This document shows, in pieces, positions 2,783 through 24,072 of a stretch of DNA of 64,000 nucleotides. Each line of letters begins with the position of its first letter. Position 1 is the stretch's first letter. Below the pieces are notes generated by a model. The model was not told where the DNA came from and made no database searches. It saw only the letters and a list, made by a program, of their open reading frames with translations. The translations under genes were made by a program, and so were the position numbers. This DNA comes from Parolsenella catena (GTDB lineage Bacteria > Actinomycetota > Coriobacteriia > Coriobacteriales > Atopobiaceae), in NCBI RefSeq assembly GCF_003966955.1, contig NZ_AP019367.1:496001-560000 (forward strand). Reading direction: 5' to 3'.

Positions 2783-2949
2783 GCCTGGCCTGGCCAAGAA
2801 TCCGGAAATCCCGATTCTTGGCCAGGGATGGGGACGCGAGCCGGGCGTTTGGCTCGCTCGCGTCCCCGCTTTGCCCGGATTCGGCCGTGTTTGGCCATAA
2901 GTGGTGACGCGAAGTCGCGATTTCGCGACTTCGGGGACTCGGAGGTTGC
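2783..2949. other. intergenic region with three perfect hairpins upstream of integrase
   Basis: 167 bp without a gene. It holds three perfect inverted repeats in series: 13-bp arms at 2790-2802/2813-2825 (CTGGCCAAGAATC), 12-bp arms at 2830-2841/2856-2867 (GGGGACGCGAGC) and 11-bp arms at 2910-2920/2923-2933 (CGAAGTCGCGA). None is followed by a U-run, so they are not classic terminators. They may be recombinase or repressor sites, or part of attP, since the integrase follows. This is inference. Confidence 0.6.
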
Positions 2950-3060
2950 ATGATCAGCTCTCTGCTCGAAATCATGGCGGTCGTCGGCCCGCTCGAGCTC
3001 GTCGTGGCCGTGGGCGAGGCCATCCTCATCGTCGCGACCCTGCGGTGGGTGCGCCCGTGA
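2950..3060 (+). CDS. tiny membrane peptide upstream of integrase
   Basis: A 36-residue frame with a strong GGAGG ribosome-binding site 4 bases before its ATG. Almost the whole peptide is one hydrophobic helix (LLEIMAVVGPLELVVAVGEAILIVATL) ending RWVRP. Its stop TGA overlaps the GTG start of the integrase, so it may couple integrase translation. No family recognised. It could be a leader peptide rather than a working protein. Confidence 0.5.
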   Translation: MISSLLEIMAVVGPLELVVAVGEAILIVATLRWVRP

Positions 3061-4280
3061 GGGCGCGGGGCCGCGAGGTGCCCGCCTTCTCCGTGAGGCG
3101 GGGGCGCGGCGGCGTGTGGGAGGCGAGGGCGTACATGGGGCGCGACCCGGTGACGGGCCGCGCCCTTCGGCCGTACCGGCGCCTGCCGGAGGCGTCCTCC
3201 GAGGAGGAGGCGCTCGAGTACGCCCGCGCCTGGGCCGAGGGCCTGGCGCCCGGCACCGCCGCGGGGCGCAGGCTCGACGAGATGCTCGCCGAGTACGTGG
3301 ACGGCCTGGCCGCCTACGGCCGGGCCGCGCAGACCGTCGAGACCTACCGCTCGACCATCCGCCACCAGGTGGCGCCCACCATCGGCTCGGTCCCGGTGGG
3401 CGAGCTGGAGGCGTGGGAGGTCTCGACCGCCTACCGAATGCTCATGGCGGGACGGTCCGGCGCGAGGCCCGTCGGCCCCTCGACCGTGCTCAAGATGCAC
3501 TCGCTCCTCTCCGGGGCCTACGAGCAGTGGAGCCGCGAGGGCCTGGTCTCGCGCGACCCGATGCCGAGCGTGACCAAGCCGCGGCGCCCGATGGGGTCGG
3601 CCCGCTCGATGGGCGAGGGGTCGTTCTCGGCGCTGTCGGCAGCGCTCGCCGAGGCCATGGCCAAGGGCGGCGCGGACGAGAGGGCCTGCGCCGCGGCGGC
3701 GTACGTCGCGCTCTCCACTGGCATGCGCGACGGCGAGGTCTGCGCCCTGGCGCGCTCGTCGCTGCGCCGCCTGACCCACGAGCTCAACGTCCACGCGACG
3801 ATGACGGAGCGGCCCAGGCTCGAGCGCAAGCCCATGGCCAAGAGCTCGGCGGGATGCCGCAACGTCGCGATCGACCCGGAGTGCGAGGAGCGGCTCGCCT
3901 GGCTCATGGCCCGCGAGGCCGGGGAGCTGGGCGGGCTGCCCGAGGACGCGCCGCTCGTCACGCGCGACGGCTCCTGGATGCGCCCGAGCGCGCAGAGCGC
4001 CGCCTTCTCCAGGCTCGCGAGGTCGCTCGGCCTGCCCGCCGGGACCACCATGCACACGCTCAGGCACACGCACGCGACGATGCTGCTCTACTCCGGCGTG
4101 CCGGTGGAGACGATCAGGCAGCGCCTGGGGCACGCGGACGTGGCCACGACGCTCAGGCTCTACGCCCACGCGCTCGAGGGCGCGGACAGGGCGGCGGCGG
4201 AGGCCTGGGAGGGCGTGAGGCTCGGCGTCGGCGGGTGTGCCACGGGTGAGCCACGCGGGGGTGGCCGCGATGGGCGGTAG
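3057..4280 (+). CDS. int: tyrosine-type site-specific integrase
   Basis: A 407-residue phage integrase. The N-terminal arm-binding region (FSVRRGRGGVWEARAYM, about 11-40) and SAM-like core-binding domain (about 70-165) precede the catalytic domain. Visible catalytic residues are R224 in TGMRDGE, K262 in AKSSAG, H333 and R336 in HTLRHTHAT, H359 in LGHADV and Y369 in LRLYAHA. GTG at 3057 was chosen because it overlaps the upstream stop; the frame stays open upstream but without coding character. The gene is internal, with phage genes on both sides, so it does not mark a prophage end; see findings. Confidence 0.9.
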   Translation: MRARGREVPAFSVRRGRGGVWEARAYMGRDPVTGRALRPYRRLPEASSEEEALEYARAWAEGLAPGTAAGRRLDEMLAEYVDGLAAYGRAAQTVETYRSTIRHQVAPTIGSVPVGELEAWEVSTAYRMLMAGRSGARPVGPSTVLKMHSLLSGAYEQWSREGLVSRDPMPSVTKPRRPMGSARSMGEGSFSALSAALAEAMAKGGADERACAAAAYVALSTGMRDGEVCALARSSLRRLTHELNVHATMTERPRLERKPMAKSSAGCRNVAIDPECEERLAWLMAREAGELGGLPEDAPLVTRDGSWMRPSAQSAAFSRLARSLGLPAGTTMHTLRHTHATMLLYSGVPVETIRQRLGHADVATTLRLYAHALEGADRAAAEAWEGVRLGVGGCATGEPRGGGRDGR

Positions 4281-4381
4281 GCGCAGGTGGCGGCGCGAAA
4301 GCGGGGCAGCGCGGCAAAGAACACCTAATTCTTTGAGAGTGCGTGAAAACGGGGGAAACGAGACGAGGACGGAGGCATCAC

Positions 4382-4888
4382 TTGGCTGAGCGCGACTACC
4401 TGACGACGCGTGACTTCCTGAGCGCCCGCGACTTCTTCGAGACGGTGCGAGACGCCGTGCTCGAGGGCGAGCGGGCGCAGCGGCAGATCAAGGCGATGAA
4501 GGCGGGGGAGGGCATCCGCCCGGCGTCCCTCTTCGGCGGGCGTGGCGGCGGCCGTGACGCGAGTGGCATGGCGAGGGTGGACGCCCGCATCGACCTCGAG
4601 TCGGTCTACGAGCGCAGGATCGCCGAGGCCGCGTCGCTCGTGGCAGCCGCGCGCGACGTGATCTACGGGCGCGACCAGGAGCCGGGCGGCGTCGCCGCGC
4701 TCGTCGGGCCCGTGGCCGCCGACGCCCTCTTCTGGCGCTTCTGCAAGGCCGAGAGCTGGCACGTGGTGATGGCCTCGTGCGGCGTGTCAGAGTCGACCTG
4801 CCGCCGGATGGTCGACGTGGGCATAGACGCGGTCCAGGCCTACGGCATCTCCCGCGCCATCGCCGGCGTGGGCGTCGCGGAGGGATGA
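4382..4888 (+). CDS. ArpU-like late transcription regulator
   Basis: A 168-residue protein with TTG start at 4382, chosen because GGAGG lies 6 bases upstream; a GTG at 4343 is the alternative. The C-terminal part (WRFCKAESWHVVMASCGVS ESTCRRMVDVGIDAV) resembles the sigma-70 region-4-like helix-turn-helix of the ArpU/RinA-type regulators that switch on phage packaging and structural genes. Its position directly before the promoter and the terminase block fits that role. The N-terminus is charged and helical. Assignment rests on the HTH and context. Confidence 0.65.
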   Translation: MAERDYLTTRDFLSARDFFETVRDAVLEGERAQRQIKAMKAGEGIRPASLFGGRGGGRDASGMARVDARIDLESVYERRIAEAASLVAAARDVIYGRDQEPGGVAALVGPVAADALFWRFCKAESWHVVMASCGVSESTCRRMVDVGIDAVQAYGISRAIAGVGVAEG

Positions 4889-8225: not shown

Positions 8226-9625
8226 TTTCCATCCCCTACGCCGCCGCGGCCGCGGACGGGCTTCTCGACGAGGACCGCGAGACGGTCCTCAGCCTCCTCA
8301 ACTGCTGGCAGAGGCACTACGGCGGCAACCTCCTGCGCTCCGACTACTACGAGGCGCGGAACATGCTCAAAGACCTCGGCATCGCCGTCCCGGACTCCCT
8401 TCGCGACCTCGAGGTCGCGTGCGGCTGGGGCTACAAGTGCGTGGAGGTCATGCGCGACCACATCGCCTTCGACGGGTTCACCTGCCAGGACGACGAGGAC
8501 TTCGACAGGCTCCTGTCCGCCGTCGCCAGGCGCAACAACATGGCCACGAGGGTCGGCAAGGCGGTGAACTCGGCCCTCAAGTACTGCTTCTCCATGCTCG
8601 TGGTGACGGCCGACGACGAAGGCCACGCCCGAATCTCGGCTTACCCCCCGACCCTGTGCACCGGCATCTGGGACGACGTCCACGAGCGGCTCTCCGCGGG
8701 GATGTTCGTGGTCTCGTTCGCCAAGGAGCGCGGCGTTCCCACGAACCGCCCGGACTGGGTGAACGTCATGCTGCCCGACCGGATGGTGCGCATCCGGGAG
8801 GTGCGCCGCAACGAGTGGGCCGCAGAGTACGTCGAGCACGGCCTGGGCGCCGTGCCCATGTTCGTCATGCCGCACAACCCCGACGACGACCGGCCGTTCG
8901 GCGTGTCGCGCATCAACCACGAGGTCCGCTGGCTCATCGACTGCGCCATGCGCGCCAACGTCAACGAGGAGGTCGCCGCCGCGTTCGCCGCGTCGACGCA
9001 GAAGTACCTGCTCGGAACCGACGGGGACGCCTTCGCCGACAAGAGCAAGTGGAGCGCCTTCATAGGCTCCATCTTCGAGGTCACGAAGAACTCCGACGGT
9101 GACATACCGCAGTTCGGCCAGCTCACCCAGCCGAGCATGCAACCAATGACCGAGCACTTCTCAAACCTCTGCAAGCGCATGAGCGCGGCCACCGGCATCC
9201 ACGTCGGCCAGTTCGGCATCATGAGCGACAACCCGAGCTCGGCGCAGGCGATCTACGCCGAGAACGAGCCGCTAATCCTGAAGTGCAAGAGCTTCATCCG
9301 AGAGGCCAAGGCCGCGTTGGCCAGGGCCGCGACCGCAGCCCTGGCGACAGAGCTCGGATGCTCCTACGAGGAGGCCGAGGACGCCTGCGCGGTGTCCGTC
9401 CACTTCCTGAACCCCGCCATGCCGACGCTCGCCCAGCAGACCGACAGCTCCATCAAGCTCGCCGCCGCCGTCGAGGGCTTCGCGGGCACGCCGACGTTCT
9501 GGCGCCTCAACGGCTTGGACGACGACGAGGTCAGGACCGTGGTGTCCGAGGTCAGGCGCAACGTCACCAAGGCGGCGGCGCTCGACCTGATGGCGGGCGT
9601 GCGCCAGGCGGCGGCGGATGATTAG
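8222..9625 (+). CDS. portal protein
   Basis: About 467 residues with TTG start overlapping the TerL stop. The order TerS-TerL-portal-MuF and the features DYYEARNMLKDLG, VNVMLPDRM, GVSRINHEVRWLIDCAMRANVNEEVAAAF and SDNPSSAQAIYAENEPL are typical of SPP1 gp6-like portals. It forms the dodecameric DNA gate of the capsid and the docking site for terminase. No truncation is seen. The TTG was chosen for coupling (ATTGA) and a purine-rich AGGAAGGAAGG upstream. Confidence 0.85.
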   Translation: MISIPYAAAAADGLLDEDRETVLSLLNCWQRHYGGNLLRSDYYEARNMLKDLGIAVPDSLRDLEVACGWGYKCVEVMRDHIAFDGFTCQDDEDFDRLLSAVARRNNMATRVGKAVNSALKYCFSMLVVTADDEGHARISAYPPTLCTGIWDDVHERLSAGMFVVSFAKERGVPTNRPDWVNVMLPDRMVRIREVRRNEWAAEYVEHGLGAVPMFVMPHNPDDDRPFGVSRINHEVRWLIDCAMRANVNEEVAAAFAASTQKYLLGTDGDAFADKSKWSAFIGSIFEVTKNSDGDIPQFGQLTQPSMQPMTEHFSNLCKRMSAATGIHVGQFGIMSDNPSSAQAIYAENEPLILKCKSFIREAKAALARAATAALATELGCSYEEAEDACAVSVHFLNPAMPTLAQQTDSSIKLAAAVEGFAGTPTFWRLNGLDDDEVRTVVSEVRRNVTKAAALDLMAGVRQAAADD

Positions 9626-10790
9626 CCGCAAGGAGTTCGACGCCTACAACCTCGAGGTGGCGAGGCTCGGCGACGAGGCCGCGTCAAACGTCGAGGAATC
9701 CATCATGGGATGGTGCAGGGCGCACGGAGACGCCACGGTCGCCGAGAAGCGCGAGGCCGCCAAGGTGATCATGGACGGCTTCGTGCAGGCGTACGACGAG
9801 GAGGCCGCGAGGTTCGCCGCCGACTGGTACGACTACAGGGCGGAGCTCGGCGGCGCGAGGCTCGACCAGGCGCTGACCATGACGACCTACAGCCCAGAGT
9901 CCGTCGACGAGGTCGCGCGCTACCAGGCGAAGAAGCTAGCGAAGAAGGGTGACGCGGCCTTCGCGAAGGCCTGCGGCGAGTACGCCAGGAACGACCTGTT
10001 CCGAAGCCTGAACGAGACGATCATCGTCAACGTGGGACGCGACAGGAAGAAGGGAGCGCGCTTCGCGCGCGTGCCCACCGGCACGGAGACGTGCACCTTC
10101 TGCCTCATGCTCGCCTCGCGCGGCGCCGTCTACCACACGAGGAAGACCGCCGGCGAGTTCAGACGGTTCCACCGCGGGTGCGACTGCAAGGTCATGGTGG
10201 GATTCGAGGACAATCCCGACGCCGAGCTCGTGGAGGGCGTGCGCCCCGAGGAGCTGCGCAGCCAGTTGGCCCAGTTCAAGGATATCGACGAGGACGAAAG
10301 CCTGACGAGTGCCGAGAAGGACGCGGCGAAGCGTGCCGTGCTCGGTTCGCCTGGGCCTCCAGTCGCGTACAAGAAGCCGAAAGAGGCCTTCGCGCACGAG
10401 CGCGGCGGCTCCTACGACCTCGCGGCGCACGAGGCGCTTCGGGCGGCCGGTCACGAGGTCGTCGTCCGCAAGGAGGACGCGCCGGAGGGCTTTTCCAATA
10501 TCGACCTGCTGCTCGACGGAAGGCTATGCGAGCTGAAGAGCCCGACAAGCGATGCGTCTGGCATCAACGGGCTTAGGTTCATCGAGCGCAATATAAGAAA
10601 GGCAGTGCGGCAGTTCGAAAAGGTGGAAGGTGGGCCGGTAAGGCCCTCTATCGTCGCGCTTAACTGCGAGGAAGTCCCTGTGACGAGAGAGGACGCGCTG
10701 AAGCGCGTGCGGCTCGAGATGTCGAGGCATGACATCGACCGCGTTATCTTGTTGACCAGGGGCGGGGCCATAGACGACATAAAGAAATAA
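9618..10790 (+). CDS. MuF-type minor capsid protein fused to a nuclease-like toxin domain
   Basis: A 390-residue two-part protein. Residues 1 to about 240 are a VG15/MuF-like minor head protein with the zinc-type motif TCTFC (158-162) and HRGCDC (185-190). Residues about 258-390 are unlike a capsid protein: a histidine-rich start (HERGGSYDLAAHEAL), then D296, E305 and K307 in NIDLLLDGRLCELKSP, the D...ExK signature of PD-(D/E)XK nucleases and of CdiA-CT-type tRNA nucleases. Base composition becomes more AT-rich here, suggesting a swapped-in domain. It overlaps the portal gene by 8 bp. No immunity gene is apparent downstream; two tRNA genes follow instead. Confidence 0.85.
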   Translation: MISRKEFDAYNLEVARLGDEAASNVEESIMGWCRAHGDATVAEKREAAKVIMDGFVQAYDEEAARFAADWYDYRAELGGARLDQALTMTTYSPESVDEVARYQAKKLAKKGDAAFAKACGEYARNDLFRSLNETIIVNVGRDRKKGARFARVPTGTETCTFCLMLASRGAVYHTRKTAGEFRRFHRGCDCKVMVGFEDNPDAELVEGVRPEELRSQLAQFKDIDEDESLTSAEKDAAKRAVLGSPGPPVAYKKPKEAFAHERGGSYDLAAHEALRAAGHEVVVRKEDAPEGFSNIDLLLDGRLCELKSPTSDASGINGLRFIERNIRKAVRQFEKVEGGPVRPSIVALNCEEVPVTREDALKRVRLEMSRHDIDRVILLTRGGAIDDIKK

Positions 10791-10843: not shown

Positions 10844-10917
10844 ACCTGGCTAGCACAATGGCAGTGCGGCGGTCTCCAAAACCGCTTACCGGGGTTCGAT
10901 TCCTCGGCCAGGTGCCA
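10844..10917 (+). tRNA. tRNA-Trp (CCA)
   Basis: A complete cloverleaf: acceptor ACCTGGC/GCCAGGT, D stem GCAC/GTGC, anticodon stem GCGGT/ACCGC with loop CTCCAAA (anticodon CCA at 10876-10878), T stem CGGGG/CCTCG with TTCGATT, discriminator G and encoded CCA. It is phage-borne, inside the structural operon directly after the MuF-toxin gene, and one base from the next tRNA. Confidence 0.92.
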
Positions 10918-10918
10918 T

Positions 10919-11000
10919 CGGGGCGTGGCGGAACGGCAGACGCGCGTGCCTCAGGAGCACGCGGGCATCGCCCGTGCGGGTTCGAGTCCCGCCGCCCCGA
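10919..11000 (+). tRNA. tRNA-Leu (CAG)
   Basis: A class II tRNA: acceptor CGGGGCG/CGCCCCG, anticodon loop CTCAGGA in stem CGCGTGC/GCACGCG (anticodon CAG), a long variable arm, and T arm GCGGG-TTCGAGT-CCCGC. The 3' end reads A-CCG, so the final A of CCA must be added after transcription. CUG is a dominant codon in this GC-rich phage. Confidence 0.9.
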
Positions 11001-11014
11001 CCGAAACGTTGAAC

Positions 11015-15620: not shown

Positions 15621-18269
15621 ATGGCGGTCAACGTTGGCTCGGCTTCGGTCACCATCATGCCGACCATGAACGGCTTCGCGGCCAAGATGGACAAGGAGCT
15701 GGGCGGCGCGGGCAAGACGGGCGGCTCGGCCTTCTCCAAGGCGTTCGGCACGGCGGCGCAGCCGGGGACCGGCTTCCTCGGGAGGTTCCGCACCGCCGGC
15801 ACCAGCGCCGGCTCGGCCATGGGCGAGTCCGTGGGCAAGGGCATCAGCGCCAAGGGCGCGGCAATCGCCGGGGCCATGGGCGGCCTCGCCGCGTCCATCG
15901 GCTCGAAGCTCGTGGGGACCATCCAGGGCCTGATGGGCGAGATAACGGGCGCCAGCGACTCGGCGCAGAAGTTCGCGAACACGCTGTCCTTCGCGAACAT
16001 CGACGACTCGACCATCAAGCAGCTCACGTCCTCGACGCAGGCCTACGCGGACGAGACGGTCTACGACCTCTCCGACATCCGCAACACCACGGCGCAACTC
16101 GCCGCGAACGGCGTGGACAACTACGCCCAGCTCGCAGAGGCGGCGGGCAACCTGAACGCCGTCGCTGGCGGCAACGCCGACACGTTCAAGTCCGTGGCCA
16201 TGGTCATGACCCAGACCGCCGGCGCGGGCAAGCTCACCACCGAGAACTGGAACCAGCTCTCCGACGCCATCCCGGGCGCGTCCGGCAAGCTCCAGGAGGC
16301 CCTGAAGGCCAACGGGGCCTATACGGGCAACTTCCGCGAGGCGCTGGAGAAGGGCCAGGTCTCCGCCGAGGAGTTCAACAAGGCGGTCATGGACCTCGGC
16401 ATGACCGACGCGGCCAAGGAGGCGGCCACCTCCACCGCCACCATCGAGGGCGCCATGGGCAACCTCGAGGCCGCGGGCGTCACGGCCGGCGCGAAGGTCC
16501 TCGACGCGTTCAAGCCGCTCCTCACCGGCGGCATCAACGGCGCGACCGACGCCATCACCGCCGTCACGGATGGCGTGTCGGCCTTCATCGACTCGTGCGC
16601 GCAGAATGGCGCGGCCCAGACTCTATCGGACATCATCGGGCAGCTGGGCACCGCCGCGGGCAACGTGGGCGGCGCGCTGGGGAGCCTCGCGCTCGCCGTG
16701 CTCGGCATCCAGCCAAGCGGTGACGCCGCGACGGACGCGGCCAACGGCCTCAAGGACGCCCTCGGCGCGGCCCAGCCGGTCATCCAGGGCGTCTCCGACG
16801 CGACCGGATGGCTCAGGGACCACGCGGCGGAGGCCGCGCCCTACGTCCAGGGACTGGCCCTCGCCTTCGCGGCCGTGCGCGCGGCCCAGGGCATCGCCGG
16901 GTTCGTGACGGCCTTCTCGGCGGCGGTCGGCGGCGTGTCCGTCACCGCCCCGGTCGCCACGGCTGGCACCACCGCGCTCGCGGGCGGCGAGACGGCCGCA
17001 GGCACCGCCGCCGGCGTCTCCGCCGCGCAGATGCTCGCCTTCGGTGCCGCCGTGCTCATGGTCGGCGCGGGCGTGCTGCTCGCCGCCGCCGGCATGCTCG
17101 TCATCGCCACGGCGGCAATCCAGGTGGCGTCGGCGGGCCCGACGGCCGCCGTCGGGATGCTCGCCATGGTTGGCGCGGTCGCCGGCCTCGCCGTCGGTGC
17201 CGCCGCCCTGGGTCCCGCGCTCACCGCCGGGGCCGTCGGCATGCTCGCCTTCGGCGGCGCGGTGGCCCTCGTCGGCGCGGGCGTCCTCTTGGCGTCCGCC
17301 GGCCTGATGCTGCTCGGCGCGGCGCTCCCCGGCATCTCCGCCTATGGGATGACGGCGGCGGTCGGCATCCTCGCGCTCGGCGCGTCGATGCTCGTGCTCG
17401 GCCCTGGCGCCATCGTGGCCGCCGCTGGCCTCACGGTGCTCGGCGCGGGCGTTGCCGTGGCCGCGGCGGGCGTGACGCTGCTCGCGGCCGGAGCCATGCT
17501 CCTCGGCGCCGGGCTCGCCCTCGTTGCGGGCTCGGTGGTCGTGGCCTCCGCCGGAATCGTCGCCATGGGCGTGGCCATGCCCATGGTGTCGTCCTCCGCG
17601 CCGGGCGCGGCTGCCGGGCTCGCCGCCCTCGCGGCGGCGGCGCTCGCGGCATCGCCAGGGCTGCTCGCGGCGGTGCCCGCCATGAGCGCGTTCTCCTCCG
17701 CGTGCTCCACCGCCTCGTCCGCCTCCTCGCAGGCGCGCTCCGGCATCGACCAGGTCAAGCTCGCGAGCCAGTCCATGGCCACGGCGGCCAAGGCCTCCTT
17801 CCGGGACTTCGCAAACTCGGCGAAGAGCGCTGCCTCGACCGCTTCTAACGCTGTCATGGGCGCCTGCCGCCAGATGTCAGCAGAGGTCGGGTCGCTCAGG
17901 CTCACGCTCCCGCGCATCCAGGTTGGCGCGCTGCCGCACTTCTCCATGAGCGGGAGCTTCGACGCCCAGACCGGTTCCGTGCCCTCCGTGCACGTGAATT
18001 GGTATAAGAGCGGCGGCGTCTTTGCCGCGAACAGCCCGCAGCTCATCGGCGTGGGCGACAACCGGCGCTACGACGAGGCGGTGGTCCCGCTGAGCCCGAG
18101 AGTCCTGCGCGGCATCGGCGAGGGCATTGATGTCGAGCGAGGCGGCGACGACGCGTCCGTCATCGCGTGGCTCGAGCGCAACCTGCCGGCGATCATCCAG
18201 AGGTACACACCGGTCACGCTCGAGCGCGACCTCGACCGGCACGTGAGGGCGGTGATTGCTGGTGCATAG
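15621..18269 (+). CDS. tape measure protein
   Basis: An 882-residue protein whose length sets the tail length. The N-terminus carries glycine-rich repeats (GGAGKTGGSAFSKAFGTAAQ), followed by the TP901-type tape measure region with TSSTQAYADETVYDLSDIRNTTAQLAANG and FNKAVMDLGMTD. Residues about 400-690 form a long series of hydrophobic alanine/glycine helices (for example ALMVGAGVLLAAAGML), which would insert into the host membrane during DNA delivery. The C-terminus has NSPQLIGVGDNRRYDEAVVPL. ATG follows GGAAGGGGGTGCGTAA. Confidence 0.9.
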   Translation: MAVNVGSASVTIMPTMNGFAAKMDKELGGAGKTGGSAFSKAFGTAAQPGTGFLGRFRTAGTSAGSAMGESVGKGISAKGAAIAGAMGGLAASIGSKLVGTIQGLMGEITGASDSAQKFANTLSFANIDDSTIKQLTSSTQAYADETVYDLSDIRNTTAQLAANGVDNYAQLAEAAGNLNAVAGGNADTFKSVAMVMTQTAGAGKLTTENWNQLSDAIPGASGKLQEALKANGAYTGNFREALEKGQVSAEEFNKAVMDLGMTDAAKEAATSTATIEGAMGNLEAAGVTAGAKVLDAFKPLLTGGINGATDAITAVTDGVSAFIDSCAQNGAAQTLSDIIGQLGTAAGNVGGALGSLALAVLGIQPSGDAATDAANGLKDALGAAQPVIQGVSDATGWLRDHAAEAAPYVQGLALAFAAVRAAQGIAGFVTAFSAAVGGVSVTAPVATAGTTALAGGETAAGTAAGVSAAQMLAFGAAVLMVGAGVLLAAAGMLVIATAAIQVASAGPTAAVGMLAMVGAVAGLAVGAAALGPALTAGAVGMLAFGGAVALVGAGVLLASAGLMLLGAALPGISAYGMTAAVGILALGASMLVLGPGAIVAAAGLTVLGAGVAVAAAGVTLLAAGAMLLGAGLALVAGSVVVASAGIVAMGVAMPMVSSSAPGAAAGLAALAAAALAASPGLLAAVPAMSAFSSACSTASSASSQARSGIDQVKLASQSMATAAKASFRDFANSAKSAASTASNAVMGACRQMSAEVGSLRLTLPRIQVGALPHFSMSGSFDAQTGSVPSVHVNWYKSGGVFAANSPQLIGVGDNRRYDEAVVPLSPRVLRGIGEGIDVERGGDDASVIAWLERNLPAIIQRYTPVTLERDLDRHVRAVIAGA

Positions 18270-19098
18270 GCTCACCTACACGTCATCGACGGGCAAGGTA
18301 ATCGAGCTAGACGCCGCTGGGGCCTACGTCGGCACCGCGCCGAAGCTCAGGAGCCGCGAGTGGTCCTACGAGCTGTCGTGGAGGGGCGCATACGGCATCT
18401 CCCGCGACGCCCGCGAGGCCACGGTAGACGCCCACCTCAGCCCGGAGGCGGCCGACGCCCTGCGCGAGCAGGCCGACCGCGACATGGCCGACTCGTCCCC
18501 CGGCAGGCTCACCTTCGACGGCGAGTGGTGCCAGAGGGCCTACCTGGCCAAGTCCGACGTGTCGGAGGTGTACGGCAGGCGCGGCATAAAGACCGAGCTG
18601 ACCTTCCTGCTGCTCGACGGCGCCTGGAGCCGCGAGGTCACGACGGGCTTCTACGCCAACGAGGTCTCGGACGGCTCCGCGCTCGACTTCCCGCACGATT
18701 ACGAATACGACTACGGCGGCAGCGGCGCGAACCGCACGATCACCGTAGCCGGGCTGGTCCCGGCCGATTGCAAGCTGACGATCTACGGACCCGCGACGGA
18801 CCCGCGCGTGACCGTGACGCAGGGCGAGTTCTCGAACACCTACAGCGTAAAGGTCGCGGTGCCGGGCGGCTCGCGCCTCGTCATCGACGGGTCGAGCCAT
18901 CCGAAGGGCATCCAGCTCATCGGTACCTACGGTGAGGTGGAGGACCGGTTCGCCGACGGCGTGCGCGGGGAGGGCGCGGGCTCCGGCTCGTACTGCTTCG
19001 AGCCGCTGCGCCCCGGCACCTCGACCGTGTCGTGGGACGGCTCGTTCGGCTTCGACATCACGCACTACCAGGAGGAGGGCGAGCCGCCGTGGAGCTGA
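18256..19098 (+). CDS. distal tail (Dit-like) protein
   Basis: A 280-residue protein with beta-sandwich pattern: HRLTYTSSTGKVIELDAAG, then SWELS-like REWSYELSWRGAYGI, and a C-terminal galectin-like half. This matches the siphovirus distal tail family that forms the hub ring at the tube end. TTG at 18256 overlaps the tape measure stop; GTG at 18262 is an equally likely start. Confidence 0.75.
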   Translation: MLVHRLTYTSSTGKVIELDAAGAYVGTAPKLRSREWSYELSWRGAYGISRDAREATVDAHLSPEAADALREQADRDMADSSPGRLTFDGEWCQRAYLAKSDVSEVYGRRGIKTELTFLLLDGAWSREVTTGFYANEVSDGSALDFPHDYEYDYGGSGANRTITVAGLVPADCKLTIYGPATDPRVTVTQGEFSNTYSVKVAVPGGSRLVIDGSSHPKGIQLIGTYGEVEDRFADGVRGEGAGSGSYCFEPLRPGTSTVSWDGSFGFDITHYQEEGEPPWS

Positions 19099-20078
19099 TA
19101 GTCGCTGACAGCGCGGGCAAGACCCTCTTCCCGCTCGCCGACTTCGAGCTGGACATGGACGCGGGCTGGGGCGACGGCGTGGACAACACGTTCGACCTCA
19201 TAGTCCGCGACCCCGACGCGCCGCTCCCCGAGGCCGCCTGGCGAGTGTTCGCCGACGGCACCGAGATGGGCGGGCGCGTCGAGGGCTTCGAGCTCAAGAC
19301 GGGCCGCGCGTCCTCCGAGCTGCACTGGAAAGGCTCCACATGGACTGGCGTGCTCGCCAAGCGGCTGCTATGGCCGGACGCCGGGCAGGACTGGCTCACG
19401 CTATCCGGCGACGCGAACGCCGTGCTCAGGCGGGCAATCGAGCGCCTGGGGCTGAGGTCGTTCTTCTCCGTGCCCGACGGGGACGCGGGCGTGGCCGTGA
19501 GTCACAGGTGCTCGCGCGACGTGCCGGACGCCTGGACGAACCTCCGCCTTGCCATGAAGTCTGCTGGTCTGCGCCTCGACGCAAAGTGGGTCGACGGCTC
19601 GTGCGAGCTCCAGGCCTTGCCCGTCACCGACTGGCGCGGCCGCGTGGACTCGGACCTCGTGGGCTTCGACCTGACGAGCGACCTGCTCGTCACCAACCAT
19701 TTGAAGGCGGCAGGCAAGGGCGAGCTGGCGTCCCGTCAGGTCGTGGACGTCTACGCCGACAACAAGGGCAACGCGGGCACGTCAAAGGCCATGGCGGGCG
19801 TCTTCGAGCTGGAGGAGTACTACGACGCCAACAACTCCGAGGGCGACGACCTGCGAGACCAAGCCATGGACCGCCTGAAGGACATGCAGGCCGAGGGCGG
19901 CGTCAAGGTCACCGTCGGCGAGGGCGTGAGCTTCGGCCTAGGCGACATCGTGGAGGCCCGGCACTACTCGCCGAACGTCACGGTGAGCGTCGAGATATCG
20001 AGCCGTGTCACCGCGGCGACCGGCGCGGGCGTCGCGGTCACCTACGGGGCCTCGCCCGGCACGACGAAGATAGGTTAG
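19089..20078 (+). CDS. tail hub / baseplate protein (Gp37-like)
   Basis: A 329-residue protein from GTG 19089, overlapping the Dit stop. LIVADSAGKTLFPLADFELDMDAGWGDGVDN at the start and WKGSTWTGVLAKRLLWPDAG, NLRLAMKSAGLRLDAKWVDG and VTVGEGVSFGLGDIVEARH later match the ReqiPepy6 Gp37-like tail family of actinobacterial siphoviruses, the tail-associated hub that carries receptor-binding fibres. No peptidase motif is visible. Confidence 0.7.
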   Translation: MELIVADSAGKTLFPLADFELDMDAGWGDGVDNTFDLIVRDPDAPLPEAAWRVFADGTEMGGRVEGFELKTGRASSELHWKGSTWTGVLAKRLLWPDAGQDWLTLSGDANAVLRRAIERLGLRSFFSVPDGDAGVAVSHRCSRDVPDAWTNLRLAMKSAGLRLDAKWVDGSCELQALPVTDWRGRVDSDLVGFDLTSDLLVTNHLKAAGKGELASRQVVDVYADNKGNAGTSKAMAGVFELEEYYDANNSEGDDLRDQAMDRLKDMQAEGGVKVTVGEGVSFGLGDIVEARHYSPNVTVSVEISSRVTAATGAGVAVTYGASPGTTKIG

Positions 20079-20087
20079 GAGCATCAC

Positions 20088-20858
20088 ATGGAACTGGTAA
20101 CCGGCAAGGCGGGAACCCCGCACGTCAGCTCTGCGGACGACGGCCGCCGCATCGCGGGCGAGGTCGGCACGGGCAGCTACGTCTTGCAGACGGGCGGCAG
20201 GCTCGCGCCGTCGCTCGTTGACGCGAACACAGTGAGGTTCGCCACGGGCGACATGATCGTGCAGGGCCGCCACATCGGCCTCACGGCCCCCGAGGACGTG
20301 AAGGTGGCCTCCGGTACGCAGGGAAAGAAGCGCACCGACTACGTCTGCGTGCACTACAAGCGCGACGTGAGCGGCGCGAACCCCACGCTCGTGGAAACTG
20401 TGGAGTGGACCGTGCTGCAAGGCACGCCGGGCACGGAAGCGACCGCTCCGAGCGTGCCCGCCGGGTCAATCCTGGACGGCGACGCCGACGTGACCGTGCC
20501 GATCGCGAGTGTGTCCTTCGACGGCCTCGCGACGGGGGAGCCTAAGCTGCTCGTCCCGGTCCTCACCCCACTCGCCACCCTCGGGGATTCCGTATCCCAG
20601 ACGGCTTCTCAGCCGTTTCCGGGCGGCTACCTGTACCGCATCGGCTCGCTGTGTGTCTTGCAAATCCAGAACATGACCATCCAGGCCGGCGTGGTCCGCA
20701 CAGCCGGAAAGCTGACGACAAAGCCCACGCGCGAGGTCGTCGGGGCCATCTCCTACGGAAGCTCGGCGGGCTACGTGTCCGTCCACGCGGACGGCACCGT
20801 CTACTGCACCAGCAAGGCTTCCGGCGACTTCTCCGGCCAGGTCTGCTTCGTCGCCTAG
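20088..20858 (+). CDS. receptor-binding tail protein, active form of an invertible locus
   Basis: A 256-residue protein. Residues 1-166 are a constant N-terminal part starting ELVTGKAGTPHVSSADDGRR, typical of phage baseplate/BppU-like attachment domains. At residues 167-171 (DSVSQ) the DNA contains recombination site 1, and everything after it is exchangeable. The current tip (FPGGYLYRIGSLCVLQIQNM ... GDFSGQVCFVA) is closely similar to silent cassette D-plus. Its TAG at 20856-20858 overlaps the stop of the oppositely oriented cassette A-minus (shared CTAG). It probably sets adsorption specificity. Confidence 0.85.
   Translation: MELVTGKAGTPHVSSADDGRRIAGEVGTGSYVLQTGGRLAPSLVDANTVRFATGDMIVQGRHIGLTAPEDVKVASGTQGKKRTDYVCVHYKRDVSGANPTLVETVEWTVLQGTPGTEATAPSVPAGSILDGDADVTVPIASVSFDGLATGEPKLLVPVLTPLATLGDSVSQTASQPFPGGYLYRIGSLCVLQIQNMTIQAGVVRTAGKLTTKPTREVVGAISYGSSAGYVSVHADGTVYCTSKASGDFSGQVCFVA
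20585..20598 (+). repeat. shufflon recombination site 1 (expression site)
   Basis: GGATTCCGTATCCC within the tail gene, reading in the plus direction. The 12-base core ATTCCGTATCCC is shared by all five sites; only this one lacks the GC before the core. Recombination here attaches any cassette in frame (codons GAT TCC GTA TCC). Confidence 0.85.
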
Positions 20859-21169
20859 ACGGCGTAGGTGACAGAGAACGACATCAGCGTGGTCTTGGTG
20901 ATCGTCACGGCCCGCGTCAAGATCTTGACGGCGCCGCCGTGTTCGACGTCGATTGGCACGATCATATTCGTGTCGGTCTCGACGAACGCGGAGGCGCCTA
21001 CCGTCGTTGACGGCCTCATGCCTTCCGGGAGTGTGGCAACGACGCCAGACGACCAGGCTGGAATGGCGACCGAGGCAGCAGACAGCGTCGCCGAGACGGT
21101 GCAGACCCGCCCGACGCGGGTCGCCGAGACCCCGCCTGACGAAAACGATTGAGTCTGGGATACGGAATG
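20855..21169 (-). CDS. silent tail-tip cassette A-minus
   Basis: A 104-codon open frame without a start, beginning at site 2 with CAT TCC GTA TCC, in the same frame as the constant gene's GAT TCC GTA TCC. It reads HSVSQTQSFSSGG, then VCTVSATLSAASVAIPAW and ends KTTLMSFSVTYAV. It is unlike the plus cassettes. Inversion between sites 1 and 2 would fuse it to the constant part. Its stop shares the bases CTAG with the active gene's stop. Confidence 0.8.
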   Translation of the reverse strand, partial: HSVSQTQSFSSGGVSATRVGRVCTVSATLSAASVAIPAWSSGVVATLPEGMRPSTTVGASAFVETDTNMIVPIDVEHGGAVKILTRAVTITKTTLMSFSVTYAV

Positions 21170-21170
21170 C
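21157..21170 (-). repeat. shufflon recombination site 2
   Basis: GCATTCCGTATCCC on the minus strand, at the head of cassette A-minus and directly abutting the TAG stop of cassette B-minus. Inverted relative to site 1, so recombination with it inverts the intervening 0.6 kb. Confidence 0.85.
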
Positions 21171-21499
21171 TAGCCGTATATCGCGACGATCGTCTCGGCG
21201 TCGCCCGCGCCGAAAATCAGCGCGCTGCCGAGACCAGACGACACGTATCTGTTGTATATGACGTCCTTGAAGGTCACCTGTTCGCCTGATATCGACGCCG
21301 TCGCGTATGCGGTCACGACCGAGGAGCCGCCTCCGTCAGCCGCCGCAGCGACGACGTGCGTCCCGTCCGAGGTCGGCATGACGCCGCTCGCGCCGCTCCC
21401 GAAGGCGACGGTCACCGCCGCGCGGCCTTTGAGGCCGGGGATGGTGACCGTGCCGTCATGTTTGATTCCCGGCCTCGCCAAGACACGGGATACGGAATG
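21170..21499 (-). CDS. silent tail-tip cassette B-minus
   Basis: A 109-codon frame without a start, beginning at site 3. It reads HSVSRVLARPGIKHDGTVTI, contains GLKGRAAVTVAFGSGASG and ends DAETIVAIYG. Its TAG touches site 2. Inversion between sites 1 and 3 would express it; sites 2 and 3 are in direct orientation, so recombination between them could also delete it. Sequence unrelated to the other tips by eye. Confidence 0.8.
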   Translation of the reverse strand, partial: HSVSRVLARPGIKHDGTVTIPGLKGRAAVTVAFGSGASGVMPTSDGTHVVAAAADGGGSSVVTAYATASISGEQVTFKDVIYNRYVSSGLGSALIFGAGDAETIVAIYG

Positions 21500-21500
21500 C
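21487..21500 (-). repeat. shufflon recombination site 3
   Basis: GCATTCCGTATCCC on the minus strand at the head of cassette B-minus. A 37-bp spacer (21501-21537) separates it from divergently oriented site 4; neither cassette reads into that spacer. Confidence 0.85.
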
Positions 21501-21537
21501 TATGCCGTGTGGATGCCACGTTTCCGGCAGCTTAGTA

Positions 21538-21551
21538 GCATTCCGTATCCC
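21538..21551 (+). repeat. shufflon recombination site 4
   Basis: GCATTCCGTATCCC on the plus strand, preceded by TAGTA and followed by cassette D-plus. Same orientation as site 1, so recombination with site 1 would be deletional unless segments are first inverted. Confidence 0.85.
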
Positions 21552-21814
21552 ACGGCGGCGAGCAGCCGTTCGCGGGAGGCTACCTGTACCGCTTCGGGCC
21601 GCTGCGCGTGCTCCAGATCCAGAACATGACGCTTCAGGCAAACGTGCCGCGAACGGTGGGCAAGCTGCCGGTGAAGCCGACGCGCGAGGTGGTCGGCGCG
21701 ATCTCCTACGGCACCTCGGCGGGATACGTTTCCGTCCACACCGACGGGACCGTAATCTGCATGGCCAAGGCCGGAGGCGACTTCTCCGGTCAGGTCTGCT
21801 TCCTGGCCGGCTAG
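21539..21814 (+). CDS. silent tail-tip cassette D-plus
   Basis: A 91-codon frame without a start, beginning CAT TCC GTA TCC. It reads HSVSHGGEQPFAGGYLYRFG, then VLQIQNMTLQANVPRTVGK and ends GDFSGQVCFLAG. It is a clear paralogue of the currently expressed tip, with most differences at surface-type residues. Its TAG overlaps the stop of cassette D-minus in CTAG (21811-21814), the same design as cassette pair A. Confidence 0.8.
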   Translation, partial: HSVSHGGEQPFAGGYLYRFGPLRVLQIQNMTLQANVPRTVGKLPVKPTREVVGAISYGTSAGYVSVHTDGTVICMAKAGGDFSGQVCFLAG

Positions 21815-22122
21815 GCGGCGAACGTGACGCTCACGTCAACCTTGCTCCACACGATCTCGTCCTGTACGTACATGTGCATTAGAAAGACGCTTCCGTCGGT
21901 ATCGACGCGGACCATGCCCCAGGCCTGGTCGTTGACGCCGAACAGCGCCATGACCCGCACGCGCGGAGCGCAACCGTCGGCGAGCTCCGCGACCTTGATT
22001 GGGTTCACCGCACGCGTGAGCGACTTGCTTCCGCTGATGTGGATTGTCACGCACCCGCCGCGCTTGAAGCCCTCGACGATGAGGTCGTTGAAGACCTGCT
22101 TTTTGACGGGGGATACGGAATG
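21811..22122 (-). CDS. silent tail-tip cassette D-minus
   Basis: A 103-codon frame without a start, beginning at site 5. It reads HSVSPVKKQVFNDLIVEGF, contains CVTIHISGSKSLTRAVN and ends KVDVSVTFAA. Inversion between sites 1 and 5 would express it. With A-plus, A-minus, B-minus and D-plus it makes five possible C-termini for one fibre. Confidence 0.8.
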   Translation of the reverse strand, partial: HSVSPVKKQVFNDLIVEGFKRGGCVTIHISGSKSLTRAVNPIKVAELADGCAPRVRVMALFGVNDQAWGMVRVDTDGSVFLMHMYVQDEIVWSKVDVSVTFAA

Positions 22123-22123
22123 C
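22110..22123 (-). repeat. shufflon recombination site 5
   Basis: GCATTCCGTATCCC on the minus strand, one base beyond the stop codon of the recombinase gene. It closes the invertible region; the recombinase itself lies outside it. Confidence 0.85.
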
Positions 22124-22124
22124 C

Positions 22125-22994
22125 CTATCCGTTGAGGAGCAACCGCTCGACCTCGCGTTGCGCGTCCTTGCAGATGCGCGGCCTCGGCACGATGTAATGC
22201 TCGTAGGCCGTGCCGATGTCGGTGTGGCCGAGCATCATGGCCACAGTCTCGATTCCCACGCCCGCCTCGACCGCGAGCGTCGCCCACGTGTGGCGGCACT
22301 CCGTCATCGAGGTCCAGGCCGCGCCCGCGCGGCGGCAGGCCGACCGGATGCGCCGCGCGACCGCGTCGGGCGACAGCTCGCAGAGCCAGCCGGAGCGGCC
22401 CCTGCGCAGCGCGCGCAGCCGCCTCACGGCGAAGCGGGGGAGCCAGCAGGACCGCGCCGAGCGCTCCGTCTTCGGCGCCTCCACGACCTCGTGGCCATGG
22501 ACCACCTGACGCGAGCGCCTGACGCGGACCTCGCCCGTGCGCAGGTCGATGTCGGACCACTTGAGGCCGCACGCCTCGCCGCGCCGAAGGCCGAGCGTCA
22601 CCGAGCAGATGGCGACGGCCTCGCACTCGTGGCCCCACAGGGCGCGGAGGTAGGAGCGCACCTGACCCGCCTCCATCGTGCGCGGGCGGCGCGCGGCCTT
22701 GCGCGGCAGCTCGACGCCGGCGGCGGTGGGGTCGTACATCCGCACGCCCAGGCGGCGAATCGCCCAACGGACGACCTGCCGCAGTGTCTTGTACGCCTTC
22801 TCGGCGGCACCCGGCAGCTCGAACCCGTCCACCCAGGCCTGGACGTCCTCGGGCGCGATGGACTCCAGCTCGACCCCTCCCCACCTCGGCAGCACGTGCA
22901 GCGCGAGCGCGGACTCGTAGCCCGCGAGGGTGCAGGCGCGCAGGCGCCTCGCCTTGTCGTCCATGTACTCGCGCGCGGCGGTTTCAAACAACAT
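22125..22994 (-). CDS. tyrosine recombinase, probable shufflon invertase
   Basis: A 289-residue recombinase; ATG at 22994 was chosen for GAGG 5 bases upstream. The SAM-like core-binding domain (about 1-95) precedes the catalytic domain. R137 in LGLRRGE, K175 in APKT, R234 in CRHTW, H257 in LGHTD and Y264 in AYEHY are present. The usual His of the HxxR box is Thr231 (TECR), a deviation. The gene is antisense to the tail operon and directly abuts site 5, as Rci abuts plasmid R64 shufflons, so it is the likely enzyme. It is clearly distinct from the integrase at 3 kb. Confidence 0.85.
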   Translation of the reverse strand: MLFETAAREYMDDKARRLRACTLAGYESALALHVLPRWGGVELESIAPEDVQAWVDGFELPGAAEKAYKTLRQVVRWAIRRLGVRMYDPTAAGVELPRKAARRPRTMEAGQVRSYLRALWGHECEAVAICSVTLGLRRGEACGLKWSDIDLRTGEVRVRRSRQVVHGHEVVEAPKTERSARSCWLPRFAVRRLRALRRGRSGWLCELSPDAVARRIRSACRRAGAAWTSMTECRHTWATLAVEAGVGIETVAMMLGHTDIGTAYEHYIVPRPRICKDAQREVERLLLNG

Positions 22995-23012: not shown

Positions 23013-23061
23013 AGAAATCCCAGACGTTGTGACGGACGGAACCCGCCACCATGCCTGGGAT
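23013..23061. other. inverted repeat between divergent recombinase and tail genes
   Basis: AAATCCCAG and CTGGGATTT form 9-bp arms about 30 bases apart in the 94-bp gap between the recombinase start (22994, leftward) and the next tail gene (23089, rightward). It could be a terminator for transcripts arriving from the shufflon or a shared operator. Confidence 0.5.
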
Positions 23062-23088
23062 TTTTCCCGCGAGAGAAAGGAGCGGCGC

Positions 23089-23505: not shown

Positions 23506-24072
23506 ATGTTACATGGACAGTTTATTAGCGGCTCGGTCTACCTGACCACGGACGGCAGCGGACTGCCAATCCGCGAGGCCGCCGAGCCGATGCCTGGCGC
23601 GGGCTACCACACCTCGCTCGCCTACGAGCAGCACGACGGGGCCATCTGGCAGGTCTGGACGATCGTGCCGGACGCCGGGACCGCCCAGGACGCCGCGCTC
23701 ATGCTCGCGCAGATCCAGGCGGGCAAGCTGAGCGACGACGACGCACTCAAGGTGCCGGCGCTCTTCCCGCGCTACGAGAAGGGCCATGTCTACGCCCAGG
23801 GCGATCGCGCGCTCTGGCAGGGGACGCTCTACAAGGCCATCAGCGGCCACACCGCCACGGCAGACGACCCGACCGTCGACCCGCAGCATTGGACCAAGGT
23901 CGTGCCGTCCGCGAGCGGCGATACGCCCGCCGAGTGGGTCAGCGGCGAGTCCTACGCAAAGGGCGACCGCGTCACCAAGTACGGCCAGGTCTACGAGTCG
24001 CTGATGGACGGCAACACAATCGAGCCGGGCACGTTCGGCAGCGAGTCTGCATGGAAGCAGCTGACGGCTTAG
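23506..24072 (+). CDS. tail protein with two carbohydrate-binding-like modules
   Basis: A 188-residue paralogue of the preceding protein. After the shared N-terminal domain (VYLTTDGSGLPIREAAEPMPG ... AIWQVWTIVPDAG) it carries two CBM5/12-like repeats: YEKGHVYAQGDRALWQGTLYKAI...DPQHWTKV and WVSGESYAKGDRVTKYGQVYESL...ESAWKQL. Each has the W/Y-x-G-D pattern and closing tryptophan. Likely binds surface glycans, complementing the switching fibre. Confidence 0.7.
   Translation: MLHGQFISGSVYLTTDGSGLPIREAAEPMPGAGYHTSLAYEQHDGAIWQVWTIVPDAGTAQDAALMLAQIQAGKLSDDDALKVPALFPRYEKGHVYAQGDRALWQGTLYKAISGHTATADDPTVDPQHWTKVVPSASGDTPAEWVSGESYAKGDRVTKYGQVYESLMDGNTIEPGTFGSESAWKQLTA

Follow-up and report, generated by a model that had tools for sequence, protein, structure and literature searches.

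A probable Rin-family shufflon for receptor-binding heads in the tail module of a Parolsenella catena prophage

Background

Why is a prophage tail gene followed by several C-terminal reading frames that lack a start, begin at one and the same short motif, and end beside a recombinase gene? This question is raised by the locus at 20088-22994 of the window, that is, of the whole stretch of 64,000 nucleotides from Parolsenella catena that was analyzed. A preliminary description of the sequence had seen here the design of Rci shufflons. The shufflon-like inversion layout in that proposal stands, while the family is Rin instead of Rci. The best reading, and a supported one, is an inversion system that exchanges the heads at the C-terminus of a siphovirus receptor-binding protein (RBP); predicted folds, selection on the silent tips, rearrangements in relatives and exact breakpoints agree independently. 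Specifically, the locus is very probably a Rin-family shufflon in the prophage tail module, swapping RBP heads in frame by inversion.

Rin shufflons were described in 2018 in the Bifidobacterium prophages Bb423phi1, Bl157phi1 and Bl30698phi1, with the site TTCCCTAACCC, a constant part of ~167-168 residues, heads of 95-100 residues and sequencing reads showing inversion (PMC6109161). In 2022 a Rin shufflon with the repeat ttccgtat was reported in prophages of Eggerthella lenta clade 1 (PMC8778435). The locus in the window is a new and very clear instance of this system, already known from phages of those two genera. With it, Rin reaches another coriobacterial lineage, and loci from Bifidobacterium, Collinsella, Enteroscipio and other genera come together as one recombinase family. 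Quick exchange of heads could be part of the reason why the host range of such phages and their plaque formation are hard to pin down.

Organization of the array

Five exact copies of ATTCCGTATCCC lie within 1.6 kb, two facing right (20587+ and 21540+) and three facing left (21157-, 21487- and 22110-), as first described. A search of the whole 1,796,691-bp genome found the motif nowhere outside the array, and its base composition predicts 0.09 copies against the 5 observed. The constant N-terminal part of the RBP (Rc; 20088-20588, + strand), assigned by its modelled fold and by phrog_9994/13141, which it has in common with the PMBT6 protein, comprises 166 residues and the junction codon. It runs into rix site 1, the junction site (20587-20598, +), whose left flank CTCGGGG is common to relatives, and into the active tip, an RBP head by its modelled fold (20589-20858, +). 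Then follow the silent tip A-minus, also modelled as an RBP head (20855-21166, -), rix site 2 (21157-21168, -), the silent tip B-minus (21170-21496, -) and rix site 3 (21487-21498, -). A spacer of 41 bases (21499-21539) separates the latter from rix site 4 (21540-21551, +), with which it stands back to back. The silent tips D-plus (21542-21814, +) and D-minus (21811-22119, -) and rix site 5 (22110-22121, -) complete the array. The recombinase gene is full length and abuts this last site, as had been stated, with its stop codon (22125-22127) 3 bases away. Two tip pairs overlap at their stop codons through the bases CTAG (20855-20858 and 21811-21814); the back-to-back pairing once ascribed to the cassettes in general applies to these two, B being single and not half of a pair.

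Read on from the 166-residue constant part in the junction frame, all five tips, of ~90-110 codons each, are open and give fusion proteins of 256, 270, 275, 257 and 269 aa. This bears out the proposal of one N-terminus with five tips starting from one motif in one frame; a loss of frame on joining, the outcome named beforehand as telling against it, was found in none of the five. In random frames of the prophage, ~9% stop at 85-115 codons, which puts five out of five by chance at ~6e-6. Chance repeats and chance open frames are both ruled out by these counts.

The active and D-plus tips are close paralogues, as proposed (76% identical), and the remaining comparable tip pairs share 17-24% identity. 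A-minus, B-minus and D-minus had been called unrelated, which is true of their sequences alone: the predicted fold of A-minus is the RBP-head fold predicted for the active tip. The dN/dS ratio is ~0.23 both for active against D-plus (dN 0.185, dS 0.79) and for A-minus against its relative in locus L018 (dN 0.21, dS 0.90), and for pairs of silent tips in the family at large the median ratios lie at 0.08-0.44. The silent tips, although they have no start codon of their own, are thus under purifying selection as protein sequences, as would suit tips that are expressed once recombination has joined them to the constant part.

Predicted structure and tail context of the receptor-binding protein

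The active protein was modelled with AlphaFold (mean pLDDT 78), and the folds and Z-scores given here rest on predicted models. The model has two domains joined by a low-confidence linker at residues 165-171, the very stretch encoded by the recombination site. Its N-domain matches that of the RBP of lactococcal phage 1358 (4l92, Z 10.8, rmsd 3.4 over 134 residues), and the active tip matches the RBP head of TP901-1 (2f0c, Z 8.3, rmsd 3.3 over 87 residues). Translated directly from the present sequence, A-minus gives a predicted match to the TP901-1 head as well (4v96/3hg0, Z 10.8-10.9, rmsd 2.4, 97/103 residues). The tips thus model as TP901-1/p2-type RBP heads on a phage 1358-type N-domain, and the earlier assignment to the host-range protein of a siphovirus agrees with these siphophage domains.

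The RBP gene comes after genes for a tape measure protein (15621-18269, +; PF20155, 8e-33), a distal tail protein (Dit; 18256-19098, +; phrog_33, 7e-8) and a minor tail protein (19035-20078, +; phrog_538, 8e-25). A further protein of the tail module (23506-24072) carries the carbohydrate-binding module CBM_5_12 and is a possible second binder of the host surface.

The recombinase and its family

The rin gene (22125-22994, -) encodes a tyrosine recombinase of 289 aa (PF00589). Tyrosine-recombinase domains are present without an arm-binding domain, and the core-binding domain begins at residue 3. Residues R137, K175, R234, H257 and Y267 are invariant among 16 aligned recombinases. The HxxR box of this Rin opens with T, and none of the 16 has His there, which makes this a family trait and not damage. 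Relatives of the recombinase occur in viral contigs, in Collinsella aerofaciens (88% identity), in Enteroscipio rubneri (61%) and, at 41-43%, in Bifidobacterium phage PMBT6 and phage ctl617.

In a maximum likelihood tree, 15 Rin proteins, among them the one from L065, a locus with the published site TTCCCTAACCC, form one group with branch support of 100/99; these relatives are not independent samples, and long branches make the deeper order unsafe without affecting the Rin split. Outside this clade fall Rci of R64, the prophage's own integrase, the genome's other recombinases and other phage integrases. The probable prophage integrase is a separate tyrosine recombinase (2901-4280, +; phrog_1). 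A serine invertase of the Min/Gin/Cin kind is ruled out by the domain search, which gives the tyrosine family PF00589.

Membership of the Rin family, and not of Rci, is well supported. The recombinase is arm-less, lies beside the array, is distinct from the integrase and shares its ancestry exclusively with Rin proteins. A short asymmetric site, rare elsewhere, precedes each head, the domains are of the 1358 and TP901-1 types, and the fusions are in frame. The Bifidobacterium systems likewise have a constant part related to the phage 1358 RBP, TP901-1-like heads, an asymmetric 11-bp site before each head with inversion between opposed sites, and an array that ends in a separate tyrosine recombinase with no arm-binding domain. 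They differ in their site, TTCCCTAACCC against TTCCGTATCCC in the window (9/11 bases the same), and in their recombinases, ~42% identical to that of the window, which has five heads, another set and order of them, and a coriobacterial host. According to the published description, the E. lenta system occurs in the same host class, its ttccgtat repeat is contained in the site of the window, and its Rin gene lies apart from the integrase with small Rv genes after it; those prophages differ in being integrated in a tRNA-Leu gene.

The R64 shufflon also combines a tyrosine recombinase, several asymmetric sites and swapped adhesin C-termini. Its Rci has a C-terminal extension and acts on sites of 31 bp; their asymmetry is considered to limit the enzyme to inversion (PMC11852207). 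The two systems are nonetheless distinct: Rci has 384 aa with that extension, while the protein in the window ends ~22 residues past the catalytic Tyr; the 31-bp sfx sites have a 7-bp core, against a conserved core of 12 bp here; and the target of Rci is the PilV pilin, a type IV pilin gene, instead of a phage RBP gene. Size, sites and the position of Rci outside the Rin clade rule out membership of that family.

Recombination sites

The rix core of the window, TTCCGTATCCC, differs from the published rix TTCCCTAACCC at 2/11 bases. With TTCTGTATCCC, TTCCCTATCCC and TTCCGTAACCC, these make up the sites found in the family, and compared with one another they indicate a site that is slowly changing across the recombinase family, TTC[CT][GCT]TA[AT]CCC. 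The left flank of the junction site is TGTGGGATTCC in 18 sites of the Bifidobacterium type and CTCGGGGATTCC in the coriobacterial ones (n=11, of which only five, including that of the window, are independent, because the other six were found with that pattern). The junction site is partly palindromic (GGGAT..ATCCC), and silent sites have the stop codon of the preceding tip in place of this left flank. This arrangement recalls that of Rci sites, in which one arm is conserved, and by analogy it may help suppress deletion. In L069, L070 and L077, Rin arrays were observed on a different protein stub of 47-58 residues with the same junction CTCGGGGATTCCGTATCCC, and the system therefore appears portable between unrelated tail proteins.

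Evidence for inversion

Recombination by Rin would take place between two rix sites (core TTCCGTATCCC) that face opposite ways, and would invert the DNA in between. One site would always lie within the RBP gene, at the linker between the virion-anchoring domain and the receptor-binding head, so that each inversion would exchange the head in frame. From the present arrangement all five heads should be reachable, three silent ones by one inversion and D-plus by two, and an inversion model started from this state yields 32 arrangements in which every tip can be reached. Activity of Rin on the five sites in this strain, and recognition of different receptors by the heads, are inferences. Some sites share an orientation and could yield deletions, which counts against the inversion reading.

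Comparison with relatives places the edges of the variable region exactly at the sites. Blast homology to L017 and L019 runs up to 20598, where site 1 has its last base; to L018 and L019 it starts at 22110, on the edge of site 5 that faces the cassettes. Relatives have the same site with other heads, at 2-8 sites per relative. L049 and L050 have flanks that are 100% identical and permuted tips, two inversions apart, and two copies within one contig (L046 and L047) are likewise separated by two inversions. Nearer to the group of the window, L076 and L078 hold one cassette (96% identical) in opposite orientations. L059 and L061 were rejected as a simple inversion pair; they share a cassette set, and their difference cannot be reached by inversions alone.

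Among public contigs no rearranged copy of this strain's locus was found, the only near-identical record being L011, identical over 5,500 bp. That both records show one arrangement would fit a former Rin shufflon that no longer inverts in this strain, and frozen relatives are known: L017 is decayed, with rin truncated and fused by deletion to the remnant of a downstream gene (3960-4500), and L071, L074 and L082 are decayed loci with a lone site and no rin. We regard such a relic as improbable here, given that rin is full length with five other catalytic residues present and is under strong purifying selection (dN 0.10, dS 0.65 against L018), and that every silent tip is intact. The strongly different cassette sets of relatives could also suggest a hot spot for head exchange between phages, at which the repeats mark cassette gain and Rin is mainly a cassette integrase, but this is hardly credible in view of the same cassettes lying opposite or permuted in near-identical phages and of the published reads of inversions in the Bifidobacterium family (PMC6109161).

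A hairpin upstream of rin

Just upstream of the rin start lies a hairpin, AAATCCCAG..31 nt..CTGGGATTT (23015-23063, no strand assigned), whose spacing and pairing are kept across the family. A hairpin of 53-56 nt occupies this place in 36/37 loci, a count not made up of independent cases, since it includes some copies and close relatives. The pattern A(A/T)CCC, 33-39 bases, GGG(A/T)T occurs exactly once in 31 of the 32 loci first examined, 12-27 bases upstream of the rin start; the exception, L068, differs by one base. All five further loci, found by another route, carry the hairpin 14-31 bases upstream of rin, and the gap from CCC to GGG is always 35-38 bases. The inner stem positions 4, 6, 8, 10, 12 and 16 covary, with up to five pair types (19 divergent sequences, permutation p <=0.001), and in a test of covariation over the whole hairpin (16 sequences) none of 10,000 shuffles reached the observed value. 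The element occurs once in the genome of the window and was not found at relatives in which rin is lost or truncated. It is unmentioned in the main texts of PMC6109161 and PMC8778435, and is possibly a new feature of Rin loci.

A known RNA family was rejected, as Rfam gave no relevant match (its sole match, mir-2766, scored below gathering and is located elsewhere), and so was an RNA made from one particular strand, as wobble pairs favour neither strand (12 vs 9). The simpler explanation is a transcription terminator that works in both directions and limits rin expression; the oligo-U ends on both strands fit this. The outer arms look like one half of a recombination site, and their conservation, together with that of the spacing, fits binding by a protein. 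More speculatively, and on balance doubtfully, the hairpin might be a third component of the Rin shufflon, bound by Rin as an operator or folded site and setting its own dose or steering inversion. Such a role, if true, would bear on a point left open in the 2018 paper (PMC6109161), namely what makes a recombinase without an arm-binding domain prefer inversion to deletion. The hairpin and the special junction site offer testable handles on the control of inversion.

Prophage surroundings

Repeats of a prophage attachment site were sought, and none was convincing. Adjacent tRNA-Trp and tRNA-Leu genes (10844-11002) lie within the block of prophage structural genes. A VG15 (MuF-like) head protein (9618-10790) has a C-terminus that weakly matches the CdiA C-terminal domain, below the curated cut-off, and is perhaps a polymorphic-toxin-like tail.
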